DNA from: a virus | Length of the DNA stretch: 31,025 nt | IMG/VR virus record: IMGVR_UViG_3300042695_000429 | Location: 1-31,025 of that record | Direction: 5' to 3' (one strand) | Shown here: positions 13,164 through 30,403 of the stretch, one piece after another | How positions within the stretch are numbered: the first letter of the stretch is position 1 | How the letters are laid out: every line of letters starts with the position of its first letter | Program-made: the position numbers and the translations under genes | The notes under the pieces: generated by a model | Database searches by the model: none | What the model saw: only the letters and a program-made list of their open reading frames with translations | Told to the model about the DNA's origin: nothing

Positions 13164-14575
13164 TGAATCGCGTAAACGTCCAAGGCGACCCTTACTGGGC
13201 GAAGGCTACCGAGAATGTTGCTAACCTTTTCAATCCGGAGGCGGAAGCCAAAGGTGCTGCTGTGCTTTCTTCCGCTCGTTACAACAACGCCCGCGCCGCC
13301 GGCGTAGAAGATCAAAACGCTGCCTTTAGTGACGCATACCTTGCTGCCGCCGGATACTCGCCGGCAGAGATTGCAGCCGCTCGCATCACCCGCGACAACT
13401 CGTTGTCTTCCTTTGGCAAGGGCATTAATACGCTTCGCGGTGGTGCGCTGATCGCTGGTGGTGACTACCGCCAGGGTCTTGCCCTTACCGATCCAGGTTC
13501 GTGGAAGAACTTCGCCGAAGGTGACACAACCTACGCCGCAGTAACCGACCCGGCTACTGGTAAGATTGACCCAAGCCTTGCTGCCGTATTTGGTCAAGGC
13601 GTCAAGAACGAGGGTGGAAACACCTATGTTTGGGATCCGGCCAACAAGACCTTCAAGGTTCTGGACGTTAATCCGCAGGGTCAGAGTTCCCTTGCCGGCG
13701 GACAGGCGAAGACCGACGTCGCGGGAGCAAACGTCAACAAGATCAACACCCAGGCTACGGCTATCAAGAACTTGAGCGAGGCGCAGATCGCTGACCGCGC
13801 GCGTCTTACCGACGCCCAGATTGACGACTTGGTAAACAAGGGTGCAAACCGCGACCTTCTTACCCTTTCTCGTACGCAGGCCATCGAGTTTATGAATGGT
13901 CTTGCGAAGGATAAGAACGACGCGCTGATTGAGAATATCAAGGCCAAGACCGCAGGATTCAACGAAGAGTCTGCCGCCCGAATCAATCGTACGAATTCGC
14001 TCATTAACCTTGATGCAATCCGTGGGCAGGTCGCCCTACTCGGCGATCCGGTCAAGAAGGCCCAGGCCGAAGCTACCCTTTACCGGTCCATCGAAAACCA
14101 CTACGCCAGGGACTTCTCGGAAAATCTTGGTAATGCCAACCAATGGGAGAAAGTTGACCCGCTCCAGAAGAAGTCCCTGTCGGACCGCGCGCTTGAGTAC
14201 ATGCGTCGAGGCGACGACTTCGGCCTGGCCTTGGCGAAGTCAGAAAAGGACCATGGTTTGACCGGGAAGATGGTTCGCGGCCAGAAGACTTCGTTCTTCG
14301 GTCTTCGTACCGCTCCGGACGGAAAGGTTACTTTTGAAGGCTTCACCGCTCCGTCTGACCTGGCTGACGCGGTCGCCGCCGGCGCAGCCCCTGGTGCCGC
14401 TCCGGCTATCGCTCCTGCACCAGCTCCCGCTCCTGCACCAGCTCCCGCTCCTGCACCAGCTCCTGCCGATGCTCCGAGATTGACTGATGATGCGGCTGGT
14501 CGTGAGGCTTACGCCAAGTTGCCAAAGGGTGCTGTTTATGTTGCTCCAGATGGAACGGTCCGTACAAAGGAGTAA
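13163..14575 (+). CDS. Internal virion protein (gp15-like position) with Ala-Pro linker
   Basis: 470 aa. Seen: an N-terminal VQGDPYWAKATENVANLF, a long helical centre (residues about 190-330, for example LSEAQIADRARLTDAQIDDL), and a SFFGLRTAPDGKVTFEGF segment. Near residues 405-436 is an Ala-Pro linker, encoded by three 18-bp DNA repeats, and the protein ends YAKLPKGAVYVAPDGTVRTKE. That last motif recurs at the ends of podovirus ejection proteins as a beta hairpin of the LPKGAxYVxPDGxxRxK type. It is the middle member of the gp14-gp15-gp16-like order. TAATG at both ends. No lysozyme or transglycosylase signature seen in it. Confidence 0.76.
   Translation: MNRVNVQGDPYWAKATENVANLFNPEAEAKGAAVLSSARYNNARAAGVEDQNAAFSDAYLAAAGYSPAEIAAARITRDNSLSSFGKGINTLRGGALIAGGDYRQGLALTDPGSWKNFAEGDTTYAAVTDPATGKIDPSLAAVFGQGVKNEGGNTYVWDPANKTFKVLDVNPQGQSSLAGGQAKTDVAGANVNKINTQATAIKNLSEAQIADRARLTDAQIDDLVNKGANRDLLTLSRTQAIEFMNGLAKDKNDALIENIKAKTAGFNEESAARINRTNSLINLDAIRGQVALLGDPVKKAQAEATLYRSIENHYARDFSENLGNANQWEKVDPLQKKSLSDRALEYMRRGDDFGLALAKSEKDHGLTGKMVRGQKTSFFGLRTAPDGKVTFEGFTAPSDLADAVAAGAAPGAAPAIAPAPAPAPAPAPAPAPAPADAPRLTDDAAGREAYAKLPKGAVYVAPDGTVRTKE
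14411..14464 (+). repeat. Three tandem 18-bp repeats (Ala-Pro coding)
   Basis: Three in-frame copies of GCTCCTGCACCAGCTCCC at 14411, 14429 and 14447, the last differing by one base. They encode an Ala-Pro linker. Near-perfect DNA identity implies recent slippage or unequal exchange, so copy number probably varies between relatives. Confidence 0.92.
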
Positions 14576-17500
14576 TGAGCAATTTCTGGGACAAGGACAA
14601 GCCAGCACAGCCCAATCAAGATACTAAACCGAAGGTTAACTTTTGGGAGCAGGACAAGCCTGCATCCGTTCCCGAACAGGTTGTCCAGCCGCCTGTCGTC
14701 AAAGAACCAGTCGTCGCCGTAGAGCAGCCTGCTCCGGTCGCCACCGCTCCGTCGGTATCTGACGCATTCAAGGCCGCTACTCCGAATGAACCAGTCGTCG
14801 ATCCGGTAAAGGAAGCGAAGAAGCAGGAACTGATTAAGGAACTGATTGGCGCAGGCCGGCAGCTCGGACAGGACATCGAAGCCCCTGGCATGGCTGACCT
14901 TCAGCAGCCACGCCTTCGCATGGGCAACACCACGACTGGTGCTACCCGACCAAAGGATCCTGTCATCAAGCCGTTCTTCGACGCCGTCGGGGATTCATTC
15001 GCCCGCTCTTGGCTTGGTTCGACCCAGTCCGACCTTTACAAGGGTCTTGCTCGACGACTGAACGCCAAGAATGTTTACGCACAGGGAGGCGCACCTGCCC
15101 TAGAGTCTAGGTTTGAAGAACTTTTGGGAAGGCTTCGTATGAAAACCGCTTTTAGCGGTTTGAGCAACGAAGAGTACGAAGAACTAAAGGATCTTGGCAG
15201 TCTATTCGGATTTAAAGTTTCTCCTGTGGGAACCCTTAATGGCAATCCTGTGAGCCGAGAATCAATTGGATTGAGGCTAGACGATGAAATCGGCAAGCTA
15301 AAGCTACTTGTCAAGGATACCAATGAAGCCCTCAAGGGCGTACAAGGTACGACCAAGGGCATGGCTAACCTTGAAAAGGCTAAAGGTTTCTGGGAGTCTA
15401 CGAAGGCTATTGTTTCTTCCCCTCTGGATATCGCAGCCGAAGGATTCGGTGGATCGCTCACCGGAACTGCAAAGGGTGCTGTTGCTGCCGCCGTAATGGC
15501 TGCCGCAGCTCGACGCGGTGGTGCTGGTCCTTCTGCAATCAAGTGGGGCGGCCTTATCGGTGCCGGTATGTCTACGGCCAAGGACGCCTATGACGGCAAC
15601 CTGCTTGAGAAGTTGGTCAATTGGGGTGAAGCCAATGGAGTCGATGTCCTTGCCGACGTCGATGGGTGGGTTGCTGCCGCCAATAAGAATCCGGAAAACT
15701 TCGACCAGGAATACGCCAAGGCAAAGAAGGACGCCCAGTTTGAAGCCAACGTCGAAGGTCTTGCCGTGACTGGTCTAGGCGGCGCGATGGAAGCGTTGCC
15801 TGGCGGAAAGAAGTGGCTTGCCCGCGCGATCATCGGACGAGGCAAGGAAGCCTTTGAAGAAGTCGGTACTACCTTCATCGGAAATGTCGCCAAGGGCGAC
15901 ATGGGTCGCTCGCAGGATTACCTTCTGTCTGCGTTGCTCGGTGCCGCTATGGGTGGTACGGAAGACATCGGCGGCAACACTCTTGCCGGAACCGTATCCG
16001 CTCAACAGACCGCACAGCAGAATGCTGATCGCCTCAACACCGTCGGTCTTGGCATTCCGATTTCCACCGCTCCTGTCGCCCCTGCTGCTAGTGGTGCTAC
16101 CCAGCCTCCTCCTGCCGCCCCGACGCCTGCCGCTCCTACTCCTGCGCCGGCAGCCCCTGTTGCACCTACGGCTCCTGCTCCTATCGCCGGCGAAGTCGTT
16201 CCTCCTGCCCCCGCTCCGGCTACTCCCGCGCCGGCTCCTGCGACTGCTGCTCCTGCTCCGGCCGCCCCAGCAACCGCTACAAACGCAACCCCTGCCCCTG
16301 CCCCTGCTGCCGCACCGGCAGTCGATACGACCGCGCTAGAGCAACAACTGAATGCATCCAGGGAATTGCTGTCAAAGTATGAAGCAGCCAGGGCAAAGGC
16401 AGAGTTTGAAGTAGAGGCTGCCAATGCAGCCCTCCAGGATGATCCAGAGAATCCCGCAAAGATTGCGGCAGCCCAAGCAGCCCAATCCCTTCTAGATTCA
16501 ACCAACGCTGGCTATGACGCAGCCACCACCCAGGTGGCTGACATCACCGCGCAACTGGAGGCTGCCTCCAAAGGAGGAGCATCACAGTCTGCCCCTGCCG
16601 CTCCTGCCCCCACCGCCGTTCCTGCTCCTGCAAACCCTGCCCGACAGGCTTTGGTTGACGCCGTTGCAGCCGCCGACGTCGAATACCAGGCATCCGTGTA
16701 CGCCATCAATAGTCGCGACGGATCTGACCCTGCGGGTGACCAGGCCGCCATTGATAGGTTCAAGAAGGCTGCTGCCGCTCAAGAGGCTGCTCAACGTGCT
16801 TTGTTTGCTTTCGACAGGAATCCAGCCCCTGCGCCGGCGCCTGCACCTACTGCCCAGGCTACGCCTGCTCCTACCCCTGCGCCTGCTCCTGCAGCACCAA
16901 AACCCGCACCCGCCGCCGCTCCTGCTCCTGCCGCCCAGTCTACCCCCGCTCCTGCCCCTGCTCCCTCGCCTACCCCTGTCCCTCCTGGTCCTACGCCACC
17001 CCCGGCAGCAGCCCCTGCCCCTGCCTACGACGGAGGCGACCCTCGCAACGACCCTCGATTCGACGACCTGCGTCGTAGCGTCAAGGAAGACCTTCGCCGC
17101 GCCTACCAGTTCCTCCTAGAGCAACAGCAGAAACTGGCGGACATGAAGGCGAAGAACTACAAGACGGAAAAGAAGGAGAAGCAGATTGAGAAGATCAAAG
17201 CCAACATCGCCCAGCTTCTCGGCGACCCTGCACCTGCTGCCACGGCTACTCCTGCTCCTCAAGCCGCCCCTGCCCCGCAGGCTACCACCGCTCCGACCGC
17301 ACAAGCAGCCCCTGCTCCTGCACCCCAGGCTGACGCAACCCCTGCCCCCACTCCAGCTCCGCAGGCAACCCCTGCCCCTGCTCCTACCCCTGCTCCAGCC
17401 CCTACGGCTGACGCTACGCCCGCTCCTGCTCCTACCCCTGCTCCTACCACTCCCGCCCCTGCTACCCCCGCTCCAGAGGCAAAGCCGAAGCGTCCTTCTA

Positions 17501-20500
17501 TCGTCGAAGGTCTTCGCCAAGGACTGGAAGCCATCAAGGGCAAGGAGAAGTCCGGCGCGCCTACCCCGCCGGTCCAGCCGTCTGGTACGCCTGTCGCCGC
17601 CGACCCTCGCAACGACCGCCGCTTCGACGCCCTTAACCGCAACCTAAAGCAGGACGTCCGCCAACTGCACAACAAGGTAATCAACGACCAGAAGACGCGC
17701 GAGAAGGCTATCAAGGAAGGACGCTCGACCAAGAACCTGGATGACCGAATCGCCCAGAACAAAGAGAAGATTGAACGCATCCTGTCCGGTCAGCCGGCCG
17801 CCAAGCCTAATGCCCCTGTAGATCCGAACGTCGCCCCCATCGACCCGACCGCCGGCGACCAGACCTACGACTACGATGAGACGCCGGCAGCTCCAGCGCC
17901 AACGCAGGAATCTACCCCGGAACAACGTCGCGACAGCGCACCTGGTCGTAACAGACAAACAAAGAGCAGTAACGAAAATGAAAGTGGCAATGACAATGGA
18001 CGTCAGCAGTTTTCGTACGATGAAAAAGGAAAAGACCGCGAAGATATCGACGACAAGCTGGGCGACTTCATGCTTGAAGGTGAGGATTGGTTTAAACCAA
18101 ACAAAACCGCAAGACAGGTCCTCCAGAAAATCATTGAATTGAATGGCGTGTTTTCTCCCATCGCAAAGATCATCCTTCAAGTAGGAGACAAGAAGTCTCT
18201 TGATCGAAAGGTGACCAGCGGAGATGTCGATGGAGGACATTGGGCGCCACTTGATAAAATCACGGATTACGACACCGAACTTCCTAACGGAGATCATCCT
18301 TTCAGATATGATGAGGTTATCTACGTCGGTGCGCTTCAGAACGAAGGTGTTAGCGTAGAAGCTGTTACTGTGGAAGAAATCGTGCATGCTGCTACGGTAT
18401 CAAAATACCCTAACGACCTTCGTGAGGCTCTGTCCGAGGCGATGGAACCTACGCCAGAGCAGAAAGCAAAAGGACAAAAGAAACTTGTTGGTAAATCTAG
18501 GACGGAGAAGGAAATTCAAGTTGCAAGGGATTACGCAAAGAACGGTTCTAATCCGGAGTGGAGAAACCTGTGTCGTGCATATGTAGCGTTCACGGATAAG
18601 ATGCAGTCGGAAAAAGGATTCAAGCCTCGTGATCTTTTGCATGCAGGAATCGATTATCGTGCATCAAATCTTGCTGAATTCATGGTAGGCGCCCTCATCG
18701 AACCCGAAGTACAGAGAATCCTTTCAAGCATCCAAGATCCTGAATACAAGCAGAGCGTCCTTCGTACTTTCTTTGACGCCGTAATGAAGGCGTTCAATAT
18801 CTCGCAGAAGCAGATGGAGTCTATGCTAGGAACAACCATTTCTTCGATTGAGGCGATCGCAGCAAGCGAACGTACGTTGAAGGAAGGAGAAGGTTATTAC
18901 GGACCAGTAGATGAAGAGACCAGACAACAAATGGAAAGGGGCGATTATGCCCAATCCAACAACCTTCCTGCCGATGCGAGCGATACGCCTGGCATCGTGC
19001 AACAGTTGTCCGGTCAGAAGCTTTCAGAGGCTGCAGCCTCTGAAATCGAAATCCGTTCTGAAGAAGGTCTTCAGCCGGACTTCCTCGACGAAGCCGGCGT
19101 GACTGACTTGAAGGGTCATCTAAAAGATCTTCTCGAAAGACTGGACGTGTCTCTAGACGCAGCTCGACAGTACGGAGACACGCCCGCAGAAAAGCGAAAG
19201 AACATCAAGGCAGCAAAGGATGCCATTGCGGCAGTCCAGGGAGCGATTGATGCCTTGAACCGCCAGAAGTCTGAAACAAGGCAGGACAACGCACCTAGGG
19301 CTGGTGCTGTGGTAACCCCTGATGGCGACGTAGCCAACCACCGAGACTCCGGTCTGGCAAAGAGAGGATTCGTGTCTGCTATTTCCGACGAGAAACTTTC
19401 AAATAAAGACAGGGAATCTCTGTCAGTTGATTTTGAATTCGTTGATGAGGAAAAGTTCAGCGGATACGTTGCTCGACTGATGCGCAACGGACAGAGAATC
19501 GGAAGGATTGAAGTAGAATTTGATGAACGTTCTTCAACCGCAAAAATCGGTGAGTCGCGTGTTGCAGATGAAGAGCAGAACAAAGGCTATGGAACGATCC
19601 TTTATGCAGAAGCAGGAGAGCGTCTTCGACGACTTGGCGCTACACGACTTACTGGGGATCTTGCCAATTCTGAAAGCGTACCGCTTATCATTCGAGAGAA
19701 AGTATTCGGTAAAGGTTCTACGAAGGTAACCTACAAAGGCGATGAGATGTCCGTTGATGACTTCCGTAAGATTGATCCGGACAAGGTTGATTGGAACGGA
19801 CTTTATAGTCCTACTATTGAAACGAGCGTACCTCTTGATCCCATCTCGCAGAAACTGGCGGCAGACATCAAGGCCGCCTCGCAAGGCGACCCTGCAACTC
19901 TGATGGAGCGTGTCACCAAGCTACTCGACCAATGGGAACGCGACGTGTTGGGCGACCCGGACAAGCCCAGCTACAGGCTTCTTTCAATCAACCCGCAGGC
20001 TTTGTCCGCTTGGGCATACCGCATCTCCAAACTGATCGTCAAGACTGGCATGAAGTTCGCCTCCTGGGCGAAGAGCATGGCTGGGAAGATGAGCAAGCAG
20101 CAGATGAAGGACGTGTGGAATCGCGCCAAGGTTCTCGCCAGATTCCCGATGTCCATCGTCACCATGCGATTCTTGGACAGCCGTGCTGACAAGATGTGGG
20201 AGCATGTCTCCCAGAATCCCAATTCGCCTACCATGCGTAAGCTGGCGAATCTTATCTTCACCAAGGCTGGTCCGGACGCAGACGCCGAAGTCACGACCAT
20301 CGGTCCGGACGGCAAGCCTGTCACGGAAGCAGTCCGCAATTCTATTCCGCAGCGCATCAAGCAGATCCGCGCGCAGTTCGCCAACCAGTATTCCAATATC
20401 ATCAACCGATTCGCCAACGAATTCGCGAAGATGAACGCCGACCAGCGTAAGGAATGGGACAAGCAGTTCCGCCGCTACGTCATCGGCCTTGACCCTCTGC

Positions 20501-22653
20501 CTTCCGGCGACCTTGGACAGGCTGTCCTTGAATTCCGCAGCATGATGAGGGACTTGCTCAACTACCAGCGTAAGGCCGGCATGGATATCGGCGACGCCGG
20601 TGATGGCTACTTCCCCCGCGTCTGGTCTGCCAAGAAGATCCAGGAAAACCTCCAGGCTTTCTACGACGCCGCAAAGCAGATGTACCAGAAGCGCGACCTG
20701 CGACTTCTCAACAAGGCAATCGATGAAATCAACGCCGGCGTTGACGCCGAGGCTGCCCGCAAGAAGCAGCTTGATATCGACGCAAACAAGCGCGGAGCAA
20801 ACCGACGCATCAAGACTGACGCAGAGTATCAGCAGGACGCCCGCGACCGGGCTGACGAACGCATCGCCGAACTACAGGCGGAGCATGACGCCAAGGACGA
20901 CGCCCATTACCAGAAGATGGCAGAAGACTGGGCGTGGCGCGCGCAGAACGGACGCCTGGACGAAGTCCAGCTTGGAGACTCCGGCATCCGCCAGGCAACC
21001 CTTCCGGATCACGCCGACCCTCGCACCTTTACCGACGAGGAAGCCTCCATCGCAGACGCCTTCATGGACGATGACATCGACAAGACCGTCACTCGTTACG
21101 TCTACTCTTCCGTCAAGAAGGCTGAAATCGCCCGCGCCTTCGGAGCCGACGGCAAGAAGTTCAGCGACATGATGGTCGCGTTGATGAAGGAAGGATTGGA
21201 CGAGAACGCGCAGGAAGAAGTAGCCGACCTTATCCGTGGTTCTCTCGACGTAGGAACCAGCAGGCTGAAGGGATTCCAGGCCAAATTCATGGACTGGGCT
21301 AACTTCGTCGTCGTATCCGGTTACCTCACGTTGAGTTACATCAACAACCTGTTCCTTGAACCTATTTCATATGGTATCCGCACCGGATCGCCACTCCTTG
21401 CTATCGAAGCCGTGGCGAAGACTTGGGCGCACTTCGGACGTGAAATAGTCAACTCGGCCGCTACGGCCAAGCTGGTTCGCAAGAAGTACGGAAGCCGATT
21501 TGAACTAGCGAAGGCTATGGATACGGCTTTGGCTGAAACGCTCGGCCTTACCCACGTCGAACTTGAACGCATCGCCCAAGACAGCGCGATTGACTTCAAC
21601 GCCGACCAGGAAACCGAAGGCAGCCCGATGGCTCGCTGGCTCACCCAGCGCGTCCTTCGCGCCAACCTCATGGAGCAGTCCGAACGCGCGAAGATTTCCG
21701 CTTCGATGGCTATCGCCAGGGGGCATCTCCTCAACGTCGCTCGCACGTTCAATGGAAACTCTCCGTTGCAGAAGGTATTCAGTATGATCCCAGGTGTCAG
21801 CGAATCCGGAGAGACTTCCGCAAGGGGTATGCTTCGTGAAGCAGGCGTCGCCGACGCTGATCACGCTTCCTTCTCGGCATTCGTCGCGTCCCTAAAGGAC
21901 ATGAACGACTCCGACTACGAAGCCGCTGTCCTAGGTGGTAGCAGAGAAGCAGCCCTGTATCGTCAAGCTCTCCAACGTACCAGCACCGGCCTTGCCATCC
22001 AGACCGACGCTTCCATGAAGATTGCCGGATCTGATAACATCATCGGTCGCTTGCTTATGCAGCTGATGAACTACTCCTACGCATACTCAAACCTGGTGAA
22101 GGATCGTATGTACGACATGGCTCTCGGCGTGTTCAAGCGTTCAACCCCGCAGGAACAGATCACGGCCCTAGACCGCGTGAAGTACGCCATGCCTCTCATG
22201 GCTGGCGGGTTGATGACTACTGTGGCTTCGGTTGCCACCAAGGCTTTCGTTGCCTCGATGTTCCCCTCCGACTCCGGCGACGACTGGATGGAAAAGGAAG
22301 ATGATTTGAAGTTCCTGGATGCCGCCTCCTACGCCGGCATGTTCGGAAAGAAGTTTGAATATGCCATGCGCTGGTTCTCTCGCGGACAGCTCCCTGGCGG
22401 ACCTATTCCGGAAGCCATCGGTCGCCTTGGAGGTGCCGCCTACAAGGCTGCCGCCAACGCCGGAGACTCCGACGCAGCCAACTACAACGCCGCCAAGGCC
22501 GTCAAGGACACCGTCCTAAAGCCTGCGGCTGTAGGAACAGTATCAGCCATCAACCCTGTCGCTGGCGGCGTAGTTAACTACTTCGCCCGCGACAAGGATG
22601 TCTCCGAGTGGATTGTCGAGGGTCTGTCCGGCACCCCTAAACCCAAGAAGTAA
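14575..22653 (+). CDS. Giant ejection/polyvalent virion protein (2692 aa)
   Basis: Probable gp16-like ejected protein fused to extra modules. Seen in order: two NFW(D/E)xDKPA motifs (residues 3-11, 22-30); helical and Gly/Ala-rich membrane-prone region (about 280-340); long Ala-Pro linkers (about 496-582, 750-818, 885-965). Between the linkers lie a coiled coil (583-669) and two related 62-residue modules starting DPRNDxRFD (822, 1010). Next are a degenerate zincin-like motif VEEIVHA (1266-1272; the first His of HExxH is Glu) and a GNAT domain (about 1620-1710, loop QNKGYG at 1668-1673). The long C-terminal ejection region includes GYFPRVWSAKKI and hydrophobic segments near 2244 and 2537-2563. 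Residues about 1122-1759 are encoded by AT-richer DNA, suggesting acquisition. Start by TAATG overlap. No transglycosylase motif identified. Confidence 0.9.
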   Translation: MSNFWDKDKPAQPNQDTKPKVNFWEQDKPASVPEQVVQPPVVKEPVVAVEQPAPVATAPSVSDAFKAATPNEPVVDPVKEAKKQELIKELIGAGRQLGQDIEAPGMADLQQPRLRMGNTTTGATRPKDPVIKPFFDAVGDSFARSWLGSTQSDLYKGLARRLNAKNVYAQGGAPALESRFEELLGRLRMKTAFSGLSNEEYEELKDLGSLFGFKVSPVGTLNGNPVSRESIGLRLDDEIGKLKLLVKDTNEALKGVQGTTKGMANLEKAKGFWESTKAIVSSPLDIAAEGFGGSLTGTAKGAVAAAVMAAAARRGGAGPSAIKWGGLIGAGMSTAKDAYDGNLLEKLVNWGEANGVDVLADVDGWVAAANKNPENFDQEYAKAKKDAQFEANVEGLAVTGLGGAMEALPGGKKWLARAIIGRGKEAFEEVGTTFIGNVAKGDMGRSQDYLLSALLGAAMGGTEDIGGNTLAGTVSAQQTAQQNADRLNTVGLGIPISTAPVAPAASGATQPPPAAPTPAAPTPAPAAPVAPTAPAPIAGEVVPPAPAPATPAPAPATAAPAPAAPATATNATPAPAPAAAPAVDTTALEQQLNASRELLSKYEAARAKAEFEVEAANAALQDDPENPAKIAAAQAAQSLLDSTNAGYDAATTQVADITAQLEAASKGGASQSAPAAPAPTAVPAPANPARQALVDAVAAADVEYQASVYAINSRDGSDPAGDQAAIDRFKKAAAAQEAAQRALFAFDRNPAPAPAPAPTAQATPAPTPAPAPAAPKPAPAAAPAPAAQSTPAPAPAPSPTPVPPGPTPPPAAAPAPAYDGGDPRNDPRFDDLRRSVKEDLRRAYQFLLEQQQKLADMKAKNYKTEKKEKQIEKIKANIAQLLGDPAPAATATPAPQAAPAPQATTAPTAQAAPAPAPQADATPAPTPAPQATPAPAPTPAPAPTADATPAPAPTPAPTTPAPATPAPEAKPKRPSIVEGLRQGLEAIKGKEKSGAPTPPVQPSGTPVAADPRNDRRFDALNRNLKQDVRQLHNKVINDQKTREKAIKEGRSTKNLDDRIAQNKEKIERILSGQPAAKPNAPVDPNVAPIDPTAGDQTYDYDETPAAPAPTQESTPEQRRDSAPGRNRQTKSSNENESGNDNGRQQFSYDEKGKDREDIDDKLGDFMLEGEDWFKPNKTARQVLQKIIELNGVFSPIAKIILQVGDKKSLDRKVTSGDVDGGHWAPLDKITDYDTELPNGDHPFRYDEVIYVGALQNEGVSVEAVTVEEIVHAATVSKYPNDLREALSEAMEPTPEQKAKGQKKLVGKSRTEKEIQVARDYAKNGSNPEWRNLCRAYVAFTDKMQSEKGFKPRDLLHAGIDYRASNLAEFMVGALIEPEVQRILSSIQDPEYKQSVLRTFFDAVMKAFNISQKQMESMLGTTISSIEAIAASERTLKEGEGYYGPVDEETRQQMERGDYAQSNNLPADASDTPGIVQQLSGQKLSEAAASEIEIRSEEGLQPDFLDEAGVTDLKGHLKDLLERLDVSLDAARQYGDTPAEKRKNIKAAKDAIAAVQGAIDALNRQKSETRQDNAPRAGAVVTPDGDVANHRDSGLAKRGFVSAISDEKLSNKDRESLSVDFEFVDEEKFSGYVARLMRNGQRIGRIEVEFDERSSTAKIGESRVADEEQNKGYGTILYAEAGERLRRLGATRLTGDLANSESVPLIIREKVFGKGSTKVTYKGDEMSVDDFRKIDPDKVDWNGLYSPTIETSVPLDPISQKLAADIKAASQGDPATLMERVTKLLDQWERDVLGDPDKPSYRLLSINPQALSAWAYRISKLIVKTGMKFASWAKSMAGKMSKQQMKDVWNRAKVLARFPMSIVTMRFLDSRADKMWEHVSQNPNSPTMRKLANLIFTKAGPDADAEVTTIGPDGKPVTEAVRNSIPQRIKQIRAQFANQYSNIINRFANEFAKMNADQRKEWDKQFRRYVIGLDPLPSGDLGQAVLEFRSMMRDLLNYQRKAGMDIGDAGDGYFPRVWSAKKIQENLQAFYDAAKQMYQKRDLRLLNKAIDEINAGVDAEAARKKQLDIDANKRGANRRIKTDAEYQQDARDRADERIAELQAEHDAKDDAHYQKMAEDWAWRAQNGRLDEVQLGDSGIRQATLPDHADPRTFTDEEASIADAFMDDDIDKTVTRYVYSSVKKAEIARAFGADGKKFSDMMVALMKEGLDENAQEEVADLIRGSLDVGTSRLKGFQAKFMDWANFVVVSGYLTLSYINNLFLEPISYGIRTGSPLLAIEAVAKTWAHFGREIVNSAATAKLVRKKYGSRFELAKAMDTALAETLGLTHVELERIAQDSAIDFNADQETEGSPMARWLTQRVLRANLMEQSERAKISASMAIARGHLLNVARTFNGNSPLQKVFSMIPGVSESGETSARGMLREAGVADADHASFSAFVASLKDMNDSDYEAAVLGGSREAALYRQALQRTSTGLAIQTDASMKIAGSDNIIGRLLMQLMNYSYAYSNLVKDRMYDMALGVFKRSTPQEQITALDRVKYAMPLMAGGLMTTVASVATKAFVASMFPSDSGDDWMEKEDDLKFLDAASYAGMFGKKFEYAMRWFSRGQLPGGPIPEAIGRLGGAAYKAAANAGDSDAANYNAAKAVKDTVLKPAAVGTVSAINPVAGGVVNYFARDKDVSEWIVEGLSGTPKPKK
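16058..17490 (+). repeat. Ala-Pro low-complexity linkers in the giant gene
   Basis: Several blocks of GCTCCTGCC/CCTGCTCCT-like codons (about 16058-16320, 16593-16640, 16824-17030, 17227-17480) encode (Ala-Pro)n and Pro-Thr-Pro linkers that separate coiled-coil modules. Pyrimidine-rich on the + strand. They produce spurious long open frames on both strands. Confidence 0.9.
17038..17790 (+). repeat. Duplicated 62-residue coiled-coil module
   Basis: Two homologous segments, 17038-17226 and 17602-17790, both open with the same 16 bases (GACCCTCGCAACGACC). They encode DPRNDPRFDDLRRSVKEDLR and DPRNDRRFDALNRNLKQDVR, then charged helices ending EKIKANIAQLLG and EKIERILSG. An Ala-Pro linker of about 125 residues separates them. 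Divergence in the rest shows an old duplication. Confidence 0.8.
19022..19045. other. Perfect 24-bp palindrome inside the giant gene
   Basis: TTTCAGAGGCTG at 19022-19033 is followed immediately by its exact reverse complement CAGCCTCTGAAA at 19034-19045, with no spacer. It encodes LSEAAASE and lies in the AT-rich inserted segment. A perfect spacer-free dyad of this length is unlikely by chance in 31 kb; role unknown. Confidence 0.9.
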
Positions 22654-23555: not shown

Positions 23556-24266
23556 GTGCGGTACGTCCTGCCAGTCGTAATACTCGCGCTGGCAGGATGC
23601 TCGTCCAAGCCGGAGCTGCCAGTTCAGCCCCCCGCGCCGACCAAGCCGGACGCCGTAACGACCCTAGGCAAGGACTTGGACAAGACCGACCATCGCGTCG
23701 GTGCTGCCCTGGTCGCAATTGAACGGAACGCGGACAAGCCGAAGGTAGTGGTGGCTGAATCTCGACTAGCCCAGTCATACCTCCCACCTGTCCCGCCTGC
23801 GGACGTCGCATTCGCGGAGGCGCGGGCGGCCAAGGGTAGTGAAATCGACTACGCCAAGCAGATGGCCTTCGGCCGGCAGCTGGCTACGGCTGTCAATAAG
23901 GCTTGGGAGCGGCTTGAGAAAGACCAGGCGGAAGCCAAGCGTGTCTCCGATCTAAAGGACAAGAAGATCGCGGAGCTGACCGAGAAGATCGAGCAGGGGA
24001 AGAAGGATATCTGGACCATGGCCGGCGTCGCGCTGGCTGTGATTGGCGGGGTGGTGACTGCCCTGGTAGGTCCACGCACCGGCATCCCATTGCTGCTGTG
24101 CGGTGGTGCAATCGGCGCATTCCCATTCGTGGTGGATAGTCCGTATTTTAATTATATCGCCGGAGGTTCGCTTGCCGTCGGGTGTGGACTGTTGCTCTAC
24201 CTGCTGTGGGACTACGTCCGTGACAAAGCCAATGAAGACACGCCCAAAGATCAAGGTGGAGTTTAA
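23556..24266 (+). CDS. Lipoprotein with coiled coil and C-terminal TM helices (spanin-like)
   Basis: 236 aa from a GTG start directly after the previous stop. Seen: a lipoprotein signal MRYVLPVVILALAGC with lipobox LAGC, lipidated Cys15; a Pro-rich linker (LPVQPPAPTKPD); a periplasmic helical region with a coiled coil at about 100-150 (AWERLEKDQAEAKRVSDL). Then come three hydrophobic segments at about 152-172, 176-194 and 200-220, and a charged tail. Unimolecular spanins join the outer membrane by an N-terminal lipid and the inner membrane by a C-terminal TM. This protein has that layout but with three TM segments instead of one. It neighbours a holin, which supports the lysis role. Spanin function is inferred. 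Confidence 0.75.
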   Translation: MRYVLPVVILALAGCSSKPELPVQPPAPTKPDAVTTLGKDLDKTDHRVGAALVAIERNADKPKVVVAESRLAQSYLPPVPPADVAFAEARAAKGSEIDYAKQMAFGRQLATAVNKAWERLEKDQAEAKRVSDLKDKKIAELTEKIEQGKKDIWTMAGVALAVIGGVVTALVGPRTGIPLLLCGGAIGAFPFVVDSPYFNYIAGGSLAVGCGLLLYLLWDYVRDKANEDTPKDQGGV

Positions 24267-24498
24267 GGAGCTGGGCGAACATCCGCCCACCAACTCCAAC
24301 AGCACCGACTTCGGCCAGGCCGACAAGGCTACCGGCGAGGTGACTCTTGATCCTCGGCAGCCGGAGTCTGAAATGCTAGATTCTGCAATCCACGAATTTT
24401 TGCACGTCGCCTGTCCATACATGGCTGAAAAGAATGTGGCTACAACGGCGACCATCGTAGCCGAAGCCCTCTGGAAGATGGGATACAGACGCCGATGA
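24232..24498 (+). CDS. HExxH-containing small metallopeptidase-like protein
   Basis: 88 aa. Seen: a canonical zinc-binding HEFLH at residues 54-58 within DSAIHEFLHVACPYMAE, with Glu66 as a possible third ligand, and a conserved-looking end (IVAEALWKMGYRRR). Phages often carry such a minimal HExxH protein near lysis or packaging genes; its substrate is unknown. The start is the ATG at 24232, giving a 35-nt overlap with the lipoprotein gene. The longer open frame back to 24103 runs inside that gene and is rejected. The holin start overlaps the stop (ATGA). It might act on cell wall peptide or on a virion or host protein. Confidence 0.72.
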   Translation: MKTRPKIKVEFKELGEHPPTNSNSTDFGQADKATGEVTLDPRQPESEMLDSAIHEFLHVACPYMAEKNVATTATIVAEALWKMGYRRR

Positions 24499-24860
24499 AG
24501 CCACCAGATGAAGCCCAGTCCGGAGCGGACCTAATCACGCACCTCAAGCAAGGTGGATTCACGGCAGCCCTTATCGGTATGGCCGGAATGGTGGCAAAGA
24601 TCCTACTTTCAAACGACGCGGAGATGACCGTCGGTAAGGCTGCGCGTCACGTCCTTGCCGCTGGCATCGTCGCCTGGCTGGTCGGCCAAGGTCTACAGGA
24701 AGTGGCTATGTCGCAGGGTCTGAAGACGGCCTGCATCGGCGTAGCCGGCGCCGCCGCAACTCACATCGTTGATTATGCCATCGCCTGGGTTAAGGCGAAA
24801 GGGGAGGCGGAGGTTGCCAAGGTAAAGAAGGGAGGCGGCCGTGGTAAAAGGAAAAAGTAA
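24495..24860 (+). CDS. Holin (three TM segments)
   Basis: 121 aa. Seen: hydrophobic segments at about residues 21-37 (GFTAALIGMAGMVAKIL), 50-68 and 74-97, with an acidic N-terminus and a very basic C-terminus (KKGGGRGKRKK). This is the class I holin layout: small, three TM helices, positively charged cytoplasmic tail. The start ATG overlaps the previous TGA. The following gene begins just after this one stops (or overlaps it, if a GTG at 24841 is used). No endolysin is adjacent, which is unusual. Confidence 0.74.
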   Translation: MKPPDEAQSGADLITHLKQGGFTAALIGMAGMVAKILLSNDAEMTVGKAARHVLAAGIVAWLVGQGLQEVAMSQGLKTACIGVAGAAATHIVDYAIAWVKAKGEAEVAKVKKGGGRGKRKK

Positions 24861-24864
24861 GACC

Positions 24865-25155
24865 ATGCCCACCCTTGAGGTGGCGTTGCTTGGTACGCTC
24901 TTCATCGCCGACGCCGTATGCGTCCGGCTGTGGATGATCATGGAGGATATCCGGCTTGCTCTGACAGATCCAGGCGCGATGGCTATCATCGTCACCGAGG
25001 ATTCGATCAAGAGTGACAGCTCGCGCGTCGAGAACCAACTAAACACAGCACGCTCGGCGTTTGAAGACACCGAGCGTGCGACCGCTGTGTTCAGCGTTTG
25101 CCTTGCCCTTATCACCCTCGCGCTACTGGCGAGGATGATGAAGGGCCGGCGTTGA
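24865..25155 (+). CDS. Two-TM membrane protein, possible second holin or antiholin
   Basis: 96 aa from ATG 24865; a GTG at 24841 in the same frame would add 8 basic residues and overlap the holin gene, so both starts are possible (a dual-start holin/antiholin arrangement would look like this). Seen: TM segment at about residues 5-26 and a second at 74-92, separated by a charged helical region (SRVENQLNTARSAFEDTERA). A long inverted repeat lies in its coding sequence (25042-25091). Its TGA at 25153-25155 abuts the stop of the convergent minus-strand gene with no gap. Confidence 0.64.
   Translation: MPTLEVALLGTLFIADAVCVRLWMIMEDIRLALTDPGAMAIIVTEDSIKSDSSRVENQLNTARSAFEDTERATAVFSVCLALITLALLARMMKGRR
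25042..25091. terminator. Large inverted repeat near convergent gene ends, possible bidirectional terminator
   Basis: GCACGCTCGG (25048-25057) pairs perfectly with CCGAGCGTGC (25070-25079) around a 12-nt loop. Outside it AACACA (25042-25047) pairs with TGTGTT (25086-25091), leaving a 6-nt bulge on one side. It sits 65 nt before the abutting stops of two convergent genes. There is no U-tract, so factor-independent termination is uncertain. Confidence 0.4.
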
Positions 25156-25365
25156 TTACTTCGCTTTCTTGAAGCCGCCCACGAACAGGTAGTGGGCGAC
25201 GCCGCCGTCGAGGGTCTTCTTGCCGGCGTTGTGCGTGGCGCAGGCGTCGGCGACCTTACGCTCGACGTACGCATCGAGGGCGAAAAGGAATTCCTTCGAC
25301 ACTCGCTTACCGTGCGACTTGGCGAACTGTTTGATGAGGCTGGGCTTGATGTATTGGATCTTCAT
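25156..25365 (-). CDS. Single histone-fold protein (phage/bacterial histone-like)
   Basis: 69 aa, the only minus-strand gene. Seen: a short helix (IKPSLIKQFAKSHG, residues 6-19), a long helix (KEFLFALDAYVERKVADACA, 24-43) and a short third helix after GKKTL (48-52). The pattern of I-x-x-x-I-x-x-x-x-G, RVS (21-23), long amphipathic helix, then GKKTL matches archaeal and bacterial histones (RVSxxA-L, then GRKTI), and the length is right for one histone fold. It is Lys-rich, with a basic tail (FKKAK). It would bind DNA, perhaps the phage or host chromosome. Start ATG at 25365 with leader CTCCCAAC and no Shine-Dalgarno. Divergent from an HTH regulator. Identification is by pattern, not by alignment search. 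Confidence 0.75.
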   Translation of the reverse strand: MKIQYIKPSLIKQFAKSHGKRVSKEFLFALDAYVERKVADACATHNAGKKTLDGGVAHYLFVGGFKKAK

Positions 25366-25380: not shown

Positions 25381-25410
25381 GACAGCATCCTACATTTCGT
25401 AGGAGATGTC
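25381..25410. promoter_or_regulatory. Inverted repeat in the histone/HTH divergent region (operator candidate)
   Basis: Arms GACAGCATCCTAC (25381-25393) and GTAGGAGATGTC (25399-25410) form an imperfect dyad with a perfect CCTAC/GTAGG core around ATTTC. It overlaps the spacer, -10 and part of -35 of the minus-strand promoter candidate, so a bound regulator would block it. The HTH protein encoded next door is the natural candidate. Confidence 0.5.
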
Positions 25411-25412
25411 AA
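25384..25412 (-). promoter_or_regulatory. Promoter candidate for the histone-like gene
   Basis: On the minus strand TTGACA (complement of 25407-25412) and GATGCT (complement of 25384-25389) are separated by 17 nt. The -35 is a full consensus match and the -10 is poor. About 18 nt of leader follow before the ATG. AT-rich DNA lies just upstream of the -35 (25413-25440). Confidence 0.45.
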
Positions 25413-25441: not shown

Positions 25442-25786
25442 GTGGTGATTGACGACCCTACACCCAGTAGGCACAACCCTCTCATCGGACCCAACACCGT
25501 GGACATCAAACTCGACATTAAAAAGCTGGTCGCCCACTTCGGCGGTCGCATCAATCTCTGGCGTAAACTTAACGCCGCCGGCTACACTCTCTCGATCAAG
25601 ACCATCGAGAAGTGGTCGGAACGCGACAGCCTTCCGGCGCACCGCATCGTCCAGTTGATGGACCTTGCCAAGCGTGACGGCCGTGTCATTGACCTTAACT
25701 CTTTCTTGCTAAACTCCGCCCCCAACGCCGAGAAGAAGCTTTCCCCCAACACCGATGAAAAACAAAAAGTCCGCAGCAGCCGTTAA
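25442..25786 (+). CDS. Small helix-turn-helix regulator (Cro/carph-isopro-like)
   Basis: 114 aa from GTG 25442; a second GTG at 25499 would give 95 aa and keeps the whole domain, so the start is uncertain. Seen: DIKKLVAHFGGRINLWRKLN, then AAGYTLSIKTIEKWSERDSLP with AHRIVQLMDLAKRDGRVIDL. This is the shape of phage carph-isopro/Cro-type HTH proteins (helix, FGG, turn, recognition helix with a W, then IPAHxxxxLxxLAxxxG). Likely a DNA-binding repressor of early genes and of its own divergent region. The C-terminal 25 residues are polar and disordered. The 3' end overlaps the next gene by 32 nt. Confidence 0.72.
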   Translation: MVIDDPTPSRHNPLIGPNTVDIKLDIKKLVAHFGGRINLWRKLNAAGYTLSIKTIEKWSERDSLPAHRIVQLMDLAKRDGRVIDLNSFLLNSAPNAEKKLSPNTDEKQKVRSSR

Positions 25787-26218: not shown

Positions 26219-27088
26219 ATGATCAAAATCATCAAGGCTGACGACCGCCTCAAGGCCGTACCCAAGATTAACATCGCCCTGTTCGGCCCCGCCGGCGTGG
26301 GCAAGACCACGCAGGCTCGCACCCTCGACCCGAAGACCACCCTCTTCGTGGACCTGGAAGCCGGAACCCTCGCCATCCAGGACTGGCCGGCAGACGTCAT
26401 CGACGTCCGCGATGTCGCCCAGACCTTTGGCAAGTATCCGTGGGAAATCGCCCGCGCCCTTGCCCTGTACGTCGGCGGCCATGACCCCAGCGATGCCACC
26501 GGTCCGTACTCCAAGCCGGTGTACGACGCCGTCGCCACCGCCTTCTCCAACATCGACCTTGCCAAGTACGACACGATCTTCATCGACTCCATCACCGTCG
26601 CCGGTCGTGAGTGCTTCAAGTGGGCGAAGGTCCAGCCGGAGACGTTCAACCGTGAAGGCAAGCCCGACACTCGCGGTGCCTATGGTCTGCTCGGCCAGGA
26701 GATGATCCGCTGGCTGACCCACCTCCAGCACTCCAACAAGTCCATCATCCTGTCTGGCATCCTCGACCAGGAAATCGACGACCTCAAGCGCGTGTCGTGG
26801 AATCCCCAGATTGAAGGCTCCAAGACCGGCCGTGAGCTGCCGGGTATCTTCGACCAGGTGATCACCCTCCAGAACTTCAAGAACGAGGACGGCTCGATGT
26901 ACCGCGCCTTCTGCTGCCAGCAGCAGAATCCGTGGGGCTACCCCGCCAAGGACCGCTCCGGTCGCCTCGACCTGCTTGAAGCCCCGGACCTCGGTGCGCT
27001 CATCAAGAAGATCCGCTCCGGTAAGCGTGTCGATACCAACCTCGTCCGCACCATTCCCGCTTCCACCCCCAATACCAACACCAAGTAA
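26219..27088 (+). CDS. RecA-fold ATPase, Sak4-like recombinase (AAA_24)
   Basis: 289 aa. Seen: Walker A GPAGVGKTT at residues 23-31, TLFVDLEAGT at 41-50, Walker B TIFIDS at 119-124, and GRECFKWAKV. A conserved AYGLLGQEMIRWL helix follows, then SIILSGILDQEID and a C-terminal GRELPGIFDQVITL. This is the phage nucleotide-binding family (AAA_24) that includes Sak4 single-strand annealing ATPases. These promote annealing and replication-linked recombination, usually with a partner SSB encoded next to them, as here. No Shine-Dalgarno; the leader is CCAACCCAACCAC. Strand-annealing function is inferred from family. Confidence 0.9.
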   Translation: MIKIIKADDRLKAVPKINIALFGPAGVGKTTQARTLDPKTTLFVDLEAGTLAIQDWPADVIDVRDVAQTFGKYPWEIARALALYVGGHDPSDATGPYSKPVYDAVATAFSNIDLAKYDTIFIDSITVAGRECFKWAKVQPETFNREGKPDTRGAYGLLGQEMIRWLTHLQHSNKSIILSGILDQEIDDLKRVSWNPQIEGSKTGRELPGIFDQVITLQNFKNEDGSMYRAFCCQQQNPWGYPAKDRSGRLDLLEAPDLGALIKKIRSGKRVDTNLVRTIPASTPNTNTK

Positions 27089-27966: not shown

Positions 27967-29622
27967 ATGAAGCTCCGGCCTAGGCAGGTGGACTTCGTCC
28001 ACAAGATCAACTACGCCCTCAACGACAAGGGCAATACGCTCGGCGTCGCCCCTACTGGGGCGGGCAAGACCGTCATGCTTTCCGCCGCCATCAAGGCCGC
28101 CGGAAAAGGCAAGACCATCGTCCTCCAACACCGCGACGAACTGGTCGCCCAGAACCGGGCGACATACCGGCGCATCGACGCCGACACGCCGACCGACATC
28201 TACGCAGCCGACCGCAAACGATGGTCGGATGGCGTCACCTTTGCGATGGTTCAGACCCTAGCCAGGGAAGACAACCTCGCCACCATGCCGCCTGTGGATC
28301 TGCTCGTCATCGACGAAGCGCACCATGTCGCAGCTGAATCCTATATCCGCATCGTCGAGAAGGCGAGGGAGTTGAATCCCTCTGTCCGCATCCTGGGCGT
28401 GACGGCTACCCCTCAACGCGCCGACAAGAAAGCCCTAGCCGCCGTCTTCTCCAACGTCGCCGACGTCATCTCCATCAAAGAGCTGATTGAGGCTGGCAAC
28501 CTGGTCCGCCCCCGCGTCTTCGTCATCGACTGCGGACTACGCTCTGAACTGGCAGGCGTCCGGCGGACTGTCGCCGACTTCGACATGGCCGAGGTGGAGA
28601 AGATCATGGATAAGTCCGCAGTCACCGAGCGGGTCATCGGAGAGTGGCGCGAGAAGGCCGGAAGCCGGAAGACCATCGCCTTCTGTTCCACCGTCGAGCA
28701 TGCGGAGCATGTCACCCAAGCCTTCTGCGACGCTGGCATCAAGGCCGACATCGTCCACGGCAACCTGTCTGACGGCGACCGCCGTCGCGCCCTCATCGAC
28801 TTTGAGAAAGACCGCACCCAAGTACTGGTCAACGTCGCCGTCCTAACCGAGGGCTATGACTGCCAGACCGTAAGCTGCGTCCTACTCCTCCGCCCCTGCT
28901 CATTCAAGTCCACGATGATCCAGATGATTGGTCGTGGCCTGCGCAAGGTAGACCCGGAGAAGCACCCAGGAGTCATCAAGTCAGACTGCATCGTCTTGGA
29001 CTTCGGATACTCCATCCTAACCCACGGCGGACTGGACAGCGACGTCGTCCTTGAACCTACCAAGGGCCAGGCGAAGACCAAGGTCTGCCCTTCCTGCAAG
29101 ATGGAAGTACCCCTCGGCGTCGCCACCTGTCCGGCCTGCGAGCATATCTTCGACGGCGTCGAGCGTCGCCAGAAGGAAGCCGAGGAACGCGGTGCGCTTG
29201 AGAACTTCACCCTCACCGAGGTGGAGATCCTTGAGATGTCCCCCTTTCGGTGGGAATCTTTCTGGGACGGCATCGTGACCATCGCCTCCGCTATGACCGC
29301 ATGGGTCGTAGTCGTGCAGCACGACGGAAAGCAGTACGCCATCGGCGGCCGGGACGGACAGACTGGTGCGACGCTCATCTCCGTCACCGACGACCGGCTC
29401 CAGGCTGTCGCCTCCGCCGACGACTACCTCCGCGAGCATGGCGACAAGGACGCCGCCCGGAAGAGCAAGCGTTGGCTGACCGAGCCTCCCTCCGACAAGC
29501 AACTTGTCCAGCTTGGGCTTGATGTGTTCTCGTCCGTGGGTATGACCAAGTACCGGGCGACGTGCGCGCTGACCTGGAAGTGGCGCGAGCGTTTCATCAA
29601 AGCCAAGATTCTTTCCATCTAA
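27967..29622 (+). CDS. SF2 DEAD/DEAH-box helicase with zinc ribbon
   Basis: 551 aa. Seen: motif I APTGAGKT (residues 28-35), motif II DEAH (116-119), motif III TAT (146-148), motif V region LVNVAVLTEGYDC, and motif VI QMIGRGLR (319-326). A four-Cys zinc ribbon follows (CPSC 374-377, CPAC 388-391), then a C-terminal domain of about 150 residues with no recognised fold. This is the phage version of the UvsW/RecG-like and RadD-like SF2 helicases, which remodel recombination and replication intermediates. It follows SSB and recombinase, and stops directly before a nuclease gene, together suggesting DNA-end processing. It starts after a hairpin leader. Confidence 0.95.
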   Translation: MKLRPRQVDFVHKINYALNDKGNTLGVAPTGAGKTVMLSAAIKAAGKGKTIVLQHRDELVAQNRATYRRIDADTPTDIYAADRKRWSDGVTFAMVQTLAREDNLATMPPVDLLVIDEAHHVAAESYIRIVEKARELNPSVRILGVTATPQRADKKALAAVFSNVADVISIKELIEAGNLVRPRVFVIDCGLRSELAGVRRTVADFDMAEVEKIMDKSAVTERVIGEWREKAGSRKTIAFCSTVEHAEHVTQAFCDAGIKADIVHGNLSDGDRRRALIDFEKDRTQVLVNVAVLTEGYDCQTVSCVLLLRPCSFKSTMIQMIGRGLRKVDPEKHPGVIKSDCIVLDFGYSILTHGGLDSDVVLEPTKGQAKTKVCPSCKMEVPLGVATCPACEHIFDGVERRQKEAEERGALENFTLTEVEILEMSPFRWESFWDGIVTIASAMTAWVVVVQHDGKQYAIGGRDGQTGATLISVTDDRLQAVASADDYLREHGDKDAARKSKRWLTEPPSDKQLVQLGLDVFSSVGMTKYRATCALTWKWRERFIKAKILSI

Positions 29623-29623
29623 T

Positions 29624-30403
29624 ATGTTCAAACCAGAAACCCAACCCTGCGAGATTGCCGAAGGCGTGAAAGCCTTGATCGACGCGGGCATCAAAGAGCA
29701 TCGTGGCAAGCAGACTCCGCGACAGTACCTCGGAGCTTCCCGCATCGGCGACGAATGCGAGCGACGCCTGGCGTACGAATACCACATGACGCCGAAGGAC
29801 GAAGGTGCAGACTTCAAGGCCAACACCCTACGCATCTTCGACATGGGACATGACGGCGAAACCCGCGTCGCCCAATATCTTATATTCGCCGGCTTCGACC
29901 TACAGACCCACCAGTTGGACGGCAAGCAGTTCGGAATCACCGACGCAGGCGACAAGTTCAAGGGGCATCTCGACGGCATCATCAAAGGCGGACCTGCGAT
30001 CAAGGGTCTGCTCTACCCCTGCCTATGGGAAAGCAAAGCCCTCGGCGACAAGAGTTGGAGCGACGTCGTGAAGAAGGGGCTGAAGGATTCCAAGCCTGTG
30101 TACTACGCCCAGGTGCAAATCTATATGGCGTACAAGGACCTTCTGTCCTGCCTGTTCACGGCAATCAACCGCGACACCGGCGAGATCCATGTGGAGATCG
30201 TCCAGTTCAACGCCCGCGACGCCCAGATGTACATCGACCGCGCCGTCCGCATCGTGAAGACCGACAACCCGGAGCAGCTTGGCCGCATCGGTCGTGGCGT
30301 CGATGACTTCAAGTGCAAGTGGTGTGACTACAAGAAGCGTTGCCACGGCGTAGCCGAGCAGAAGACGCCGGACGCCGAACCTCCGAAGACTTGGGCTTGG
30401 TGA
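29624..30403 (+). CDS. PD-(D/E)XK nuclease with Cys cluster (RecB/Cas4-like)
   Basis: 259 aa. Seen: GHDGE (residues 75-79), GHLDG with Asp117, WESKA with Glu136 and Lys138, and a Gln-containing helix YYAQVQIYM (Q163, Q165). Together these form the RecB-family nuclease core. Cys45 (GDECERRL) and the C-terminal Cys231, Cys234, Cys240 (CKWCDYKKRC) have the spacing of the iron-sulfur cluster in Cas4 and AddB-type nucleases. Probably a 5'-3' exonuclease giving single strands for the recombinase. One base separates it from the helicase stop; the leader is TCTAAT with no Shine-Dalgarno. Confidence 0.9.
   Translation: MFKPETQPCEIAEGVKALIDAGIKEHRGKQTPRQYLGASRIGDECERRLAYEYHMTPKDEGADFKANTLRIFDMGHDGETRVAQYLIFAGFDLQTHQLDGKQFGITDAGDKFKGHLDGIIKGGPAIKGLLYPCLWESKALGDKSWSDVVKKGLKDSKPVYYAQVQIYMAYKDLLSCLFTAINRDTGEIHVEIVQFNARDAQMYIDRAVRIVKTDNPEQLGRIGRGVDDFKCKWCDYKKRCHGVAEQKTPDAEPPKTWAW

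Follow-up and report, generated by a model that had tools for sequence, protein, structure and literature searches.

A predicted minimal histone of a tailed phage and its candidate Cro-like control region

Three solved prokaryotic histones are the nearest described relatives of the protein reported here: HBb (Bd0055), the bacterial dimer histone of Bdellovibrio (PDB 8CMP, 8FVX, 9EZZ, and 9F0E), HTkC, a face-to-face (FtF) alpha3 histone from Thermococcus kodakarensis (PDB 9F2C), and HLp, an FtF histone of Leptospira perolatii (PDB 9QT0). In alpha3 histones, helix alpha2 is 4–5 residues shorter than in nucleosomal histones and alpha3 is cut to 3–4 residues (Schwab 2024, PMC11390915). HBb contacts DNA through N22, R57, S9, T53, T8, S24, K10, K12, K52, and K16 (PMC11317129), and in HBb, HLp, and HMfB loop L2 is held steady by an R-D clamp (PMC12701072, PMC11317129). 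The first formal description of histones from tailed phages dates from 2024 and presents them as a minor group from metagenomes that bears an additional domain; in these "phage histones" (A0A2E7QIQ9), basic residues of alpha1 and L2 are conserved, and one Arg strongly so (PMC11390915). No report of the small histone family presented below was found in the literature.

The window analyzed is a stretch of 31,025 nucleotides (IMG/VR record IMGVR_UViG_3300042695_000429), and the terminase, portal, and major head proteins found in it indicate a tailed phage. The label "podovirus" given in the preliminary description was not confirmed, since portal and head proteins were present and no tail gene was identified in the window. 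A codon-usage gene caller placed 28 of the 29 genes on the plus strand; the sole minus-strand gene, as first described, is the histone-fold gene at 25156–25365. It runs from an ATG at 25365 to a TAA at 25158–25156 and encodes exactly 69 amino acids (MKIQYIKPSLIKQFAKSHGKRVSKEFLFALDAYVERKVADACATHNAGKKTLDGGVAHYLFVGGFKKAK; pI 9.95, net charge +9), with RVS at residues 21–23 and GKKTL at residues 48–52, in agreement with the layout originally noted. The assignment draws on translation, family alignment, AlphaFold2, Foldseek, dN/dS, and charge. A dN/dS of 0.18–0.23 against the two nearest non-identical relatives (75–77% protein identity) and the full-length alignment of 36 distinct sequences place the reading frame above chance; it is a genuine gene under purifying selection. 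We propose, with a probability of about 0.6, that its product is a minimal histone acting as a phage nucleoid-associated protein, repressed here by a Cro-like protein via two CCTAC-N5-GTAGG operators.

An AlphaFold2 monomer model, built with 19 family sequences, had a mean pLDDT of 88, with 41 residues at 90 or above and helices at residues 8–17, 24–43, and 54–61. Along the chain, alpha1 (8–17) is followed by L1 with K20, R21, V22, and S23, by alpha2 (24–43; 20 residues in the model), by L2 with H45, N46, A47, G48, K49, K50, and T51, by alpha3 (54–61; 8 residues in the predicted model against 3–4 in alpha3 histones), and by a Lys-rich tail (66–69). The tail, part of the layout in the preliminary description, is limited to the subgroup of the window and a few further ones and does not hold as a family feature in the alignment. 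When the model was compared with 350,542 PDB chains by Foldseek, ranks 1–7 were all entries of HLp, HBb, and HTkC, followed by eukaryotic histones. The TM-scores of these seven matches were 0.58–0.69 by query and 0.64–0.83 by target and their probabilities 0.91–1.00, while the best E-value was weak (0.13) owing to the short chain of 69 residues. The predicted helix–loop–long helix–loop–helix order and the top PDB matches thus agree with the histone fold originally suggested, and on the basis of the model the family protein very probably has this fold.

Sequence comparison pointed in the same direction. The family profile, searched against all PDB chains, matched HTkC with E = 2.9e-4 and HBb with E = 0.15, and hhalign gave a probability of 93% against the three prokaryotic histones. 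The bit scores of the profile were 22.6 for HTkC, 13.9 for HBb, and 10.2 for HLp, compared with maxima of 4.8, 6.1, and 5.6 bits, respectively, for 150 column-permuted control profiles. The search of CBFD_NFYB_HMF (PF00808) proposed in the preliminary description gave no match to the window protein (P0001) or any of the 19 members, nor any in the two bacterial genomes where the histone gene was first detected, and the histone call rests on the family profile against the solved prokaryotic histones. Profile searches of Pfam and NCBIfam returned nothing usable for the window protein or the family, which is unnamed in Pfam, NCBIfam, and PHROGs; neither was there in these three collections any confident assignment to another small helical family, the competing class named at the outset. 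We regard it as very improbable that the protein is some other small helical DNA-binding protein, such as a fragment of a RuvC-like resolvase or a helix-turn-helix of Cro type, that looks like a histone by chance. Residues 1–33 of one relative do resemble the C-terminal motif of a RuvC-like resolvase of Vibrio phages (E = 0.003), but this likeness is a short motif that ends before HNGGKKT, no RuvC or helix-turn-helix structure was among the best 50 PDB matches, and the permuted profiles never attained the observed histone scores.

The RuvC-like resolvase motif, for example PPTTLKKFATGNGKATKKE (L084 1195–1719 and L085 1183–1683), resembles the N-terminal half of the family with E = 0.003 and is an annotation trap for it; the matches in Vibrio and Bacteroides phages represent this motif and lie outside the histone family. 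Other look-alikes were rejected as well. Matches of the family profile to TAL effectors were an artefact of a short H-x-GGK likeness summed over many repeats, with no single significant stretch, two loci (L008 and L009) were false positives that by eye are an ATPase and a terminase-like protein, and one (L125) was a chance match within an 870-residue open frame.

Profile-guided scans of IMG/VR yielded 46 loci with 35 distinct family proteins. Two more copies were found in GTDB contigs, one in a Candidatus Aquidulcis MAG (L039) and one in an Ignavibacteriaceae MAG (L040), and a third bacterial-genome copy (G126) came from searching genomes of the phylum to which the Ignavibacteriaceae MAG belongs. 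At the sensitivity used, no member was detected among the INPHARED phages, where cultured phages were queried with three members, or in plasmid records. All members are 62–70 amino acids in size, with a pI of 9.6–10.3 and a net charge of +6 to +9, and the A3 alignment of 36 sequences is almost free of gaps across 60 residues. Two BFVD proteins of uncultured Caudovirales phages, A0A6J5MS37 (91 amino acids) and A0A6J5QYV5, both "uncharacterized" and with no function assigned, are close family members with 53–55% identity in the structural alignment and TM-scores of 0.83–0.84 by query. PHROG_20657 (63 amino acids, function unknown) matches the family across nearly its full length with a marginal E-value of 0.014 and, judged from this match, may be a more distant branch.

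As L039 has a block of neighbouring genes in common with a viral contig (L063), the likeliest interpretation is a phage sequence that was binned with the Candidatus Aquidulcis genome or is inserted in it. The Ignavibacteria copies are located in chromosomal contigs. In G126 the histone gene lies on a 3.7-Mb contig about 0.9 kb from tRNA-Met, in a short cluster (L126 4827–7960) that also encodes an ArdC-type anti-restriction protein (phrog_7245, E = 7e-66) as well as a Sak4-like ATPase (phrog_124, E = 3e-14) and is probably an integrated mobile element. A similar pair of Sak4-like and histone genes was seen in L040/L127.

At the positions of the ten HBb DNA contacts, in the order listed above, the window protein has R21, G55, S9, T51, P8, S23, L10, K12, K50, and K16, the position equivalent to HBb R57 being outside the aligned stretch and extended by hand. 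Six of the ten are identical by alignment (S9, K12, K16, S24, K52, and T53 of HBb), and the replacement of N22 by Arg is a basic one. All 36 sequences have a basic residue at positions 12 and 20 as well as R21, K49, and T51, and 33 of them are basic at position 50 too; the strictly invariant residues are R21, H45, N46, G48, K49, and T51. The RxTxxxxD (R-x-T-x4-D) clamp is absent, with K49-x-T51 and V, L, or I at position 56 in every sequence (K49...V56 in the window protein). L2 carries a motif invariant across the family, H-N-x-G-K-x-T, in which H45-N46 has no counterpart in HTkC, HBb, or HLp, and D53 follows in 35 of the 36 sequences. Judging by this conservation, D53 and H45-N46 may steady L2 in another way.

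The conserved basic residues at DNA-facing positions, together with the two conserved operator-like repeats described below, support the proposal, while the loss of R57, D58, and the R-D clamp of HBb in the window protein counts against it. The invariant H45-N46 could also serve a different function. The fold might, for instance, form a protein-interaction dimer that has lost general DNA binding and uses H45-N46 as its interaction site, as an inhibitor or as one component of a complex for recombination or anti-defence. Some prokaryotic histone-fold groups without DNA-binding residues provide a precedent (Schwab et al., PMC11390915), and the lost clamp and the invariance of H45, N46, and G48 in 36 sequences, with H45-N46 absent from the three solved relatives, would fit. 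Nevertheless, the remaining invariant positions are the basic residues that face DNA in alpha1, L1, and L2, and all members are strongly basic, which makes such a dimer quite unlikely. DNA architecture is the likely function of the histone protein.

The stop codon of the histone gene abuts that of the plus-strand gene at 24865–25155. Its position between lysis and recombination modules was as originally described: on one side lies a holin-like gene (24495–24860, plus strand; phrog_785, E = 5e-4), and on the other, past the divergent gene, a Sak4-like ssDNA annealing ATPase (26219–27088, plus strand; phrog_124, E = 2.2e-41), followed in the recombination and replication region by a helicase (27967–29622) and a Cas4-type exonuclease (29624–30403). 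The lone position divergent from a helix-turn-helix gene is real in the window but is not the usual arrangement, as among 35 gene-called loci the histone gene stands alone against its neighbours only in the window's own group (3 loci); in 25 of the 35, both neighbours are co-directional with it. In other phages, RusA, endonuclease VII, a PDDEXK nuclease, a replication initiator, a DnaC-like loader, and a primase/helicase were encoded within 12 genes of the histone, as was ArdC in a few loci. This is the usual early/replication zone of such phages and lends weak support to a role in DNA metabolism; since the neighbourhoods vary, no single partner is indicated. Giant-virus histones (PMC11390915) offer an analogy for a virion protein that would condense capsid DNA like the histone doublets of Marseilleviridae. 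The gene, however, lies outside the structural block and on the opposite strand, with genes of regulation and recombination next to it, and we consider a virion role highly improbable.

A few further features of these loci were observed. The window encodes a small H-E-x-x-H-type protein (IHEFLHV) at 24232–24498 that has no Pfam match, and its homologues occur a few genes from the histone in 13 other loci of otherwise different phages. The protein encoded at 14575–22653 has 2692 amino acids, is rich in Pro and Ala over long stretches, and matched nothing in PHROGs. Few genes of the window and of the family loci have a Shine-Dalgarno sequence, which suggests that the hosts have SD-poor translation; the leaders before the starts are pyrimidine- or C/A-rich, and a near-identical leader, TTTCTGTTCTTTCACATCCGCAT, precedes the histone ATG throughout one phage group.

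The gene divergent from the histone gene encodes a predicted helix-turn-helix protein of 95 amino acids from a GTG at 25499 (25499–25786, plus strand). This start, as called in L042 and L044, is more likely than 25442 and leaves a divergent region of 133 bp. The AlphaFold2 model of the protein (core pLDDT about 88) has four helices forming a small helical domain of helix-turn-helix type, and its best PDB match, a weak one, was phage N15 Cro. No Pfam or PHROG match was found for the protein; from the model, a Cro-like nature is plausible. A homologue, followed by the same next gene, is present in an unrelated phage (L051).

On the minus strand, a TTGACA hexamer at 25412–25407, conserved in the relatives L015 and L044, is a candidate -35 of the histone promoter. 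The hexamer put forward in the preliminary description thus exists, but the candidate -10 that follows after a 17-nt spacer (GATGCT, 25389–25384) is poor, with 3 of 6 matches to TATAAT, and the pair was absent from the output of a consensus promoter scan. In L015 and L044 the -10 candidate is GATACT (4 of 6). Within the spacer of this candidate promoter lies an inverted repeat, CCTAC-ATTTC-GTAGG (25389–25403), with perfect 6-bp arms TCCTAC/GTAGGA at 25388–25404, and 68 bp away a second one, CCTAC-ACCCA-GTAGG (25457–25471), directly 3' of TTGACG (25449–25454). Each of these two operator candidates is preceded on its own strand by a TTGAC[A/G] hexamer, and they are the only exact CCTAC-N5-GTAGG sequences in the window. 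None of 2000 dinucleotide shuffles of the divergent region yielded two palindromes with common arms, and elsewhere in the window such a pair was found at one place only, near 28041. Both repeats are kept in L044 and L015, the first in L044 with its arms intact and its loop changed, and the second in all close relatives. The intergenic identity to L044/L015 is 89–93%, compared with 78–79% in the histone coding sequence. Past the histone stop by 77 nt, an intrinsic-terminator-like hairpin (25048–25079, minus strand; 13 bp with 9 G-C, then TGTGTTTAGT) has an equivalent stretch in L015 and is absent from L044. No Rfam RNA family was found in the control region. The simplest reading of these sequence features is that in the window's phage group the histone gene is a repressor-controlled, monocistronic unit, and the adjoining repressor-like gene probably switches it.

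Under the nucleoid-associated reading that we favour, two histone copies would pair through alpha2, and the alpha1 face with loops L1 and L2 would hold the DNA by its backbone irrespective of sequence and so bend or coat it, by analogy with HBb. The protein would sit on DNA during infection, most likely on that of the phage itself as it enters or replicates. In the window's group the gene would form its own transcription unit of promoter, gene, and terminator, and the Cro-like protein would probably repress both divergent promoters by binding the two operators. What we infer is that the protein dimerises, that it binds and bends DNA and may compact or silence it, that its gene is repressed, and when and on which DNA it acts. 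A small basic protein, lying within early-gene runs in many phages and apparently repressor-controlled in the window, might alternatively coat or silence the host chromosome during host takeover. The recombination, replication, and ArdC anti-restriction neighbours and the presence of the gene in an apparently integrated element fit the element's own DNA as well or better, and we regard a host target as unlikely.

If it binds DNA, this domain-minimal viral histone joins the debate on the movement of histones between bacteria, archaea, and viruses. Its 69 amino acids permit direct expression and testing, and the conserved control region gives a concrete prediction of when the phage would deploy it. 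A wider generalization, that the family constitutes widespread, unnamed minimal histones of mobile elements in which H-N-x-G-K-x-T of L2 replaces the R-D clamp, possibly entailing a separate manner of holding DNA, and one lineage has acquired a two-operator Cro-type switch, is at present doubtful; if it were true, infection by that lineage would include a repressor-controlled chromatin step.

Among the known systems, HLp comes first by structure (TM 0.69 by query, 0.83 by target), although its tetramer residues R49/N53/R55 are not kept in the phage family. HTkC shares the three-helix histone fold and comes closest in sequence, at 38% in the Foldseek alignment and with a profile E of 2.9e-4, with R-V-S in L1 and G-[RK]-K-T in L2 in common. 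The phage family lacks its R-D clamp, however, and does not keep the FtF tetramer residues R...N.R before the T, position 43 being variable, 47 Gly or Ala, and 49 Lys. Like the window protein, HBb is a single histone fold of about 65 amino acids, but its R51-D58 clamp and R57 correspond to K49, V56, and G55, and its alpha3 is a single turn compared with the predicted 8 residues. The H1-like proteins of moraphages (PF07432; PMC12619734) are likewise basic chromatin-type proteins of aquatic phages, but they are of the H1/Hc1 type with no histone fold, and no Pfam match ties them to this family. With the "phage histones" of PMC11390915, the family has in common the histone fold, an origin in tailed phages, and the lack of RxTxxxD, but their C-terminal helical tetramerisation domain is absent from all 36 aligned members, which end after alpha3; this separation follows their published description. 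The missing C-terminal domain places the family outside the published phage histones, just as the predicted 8-residue alpha3 and the missing clamp place it outside the alpha3 histones, to which it is related by sequence and nearest without being filed as a member. It is simpler than the described phage category and recurs across many different environmental phages and chromosomal elements.
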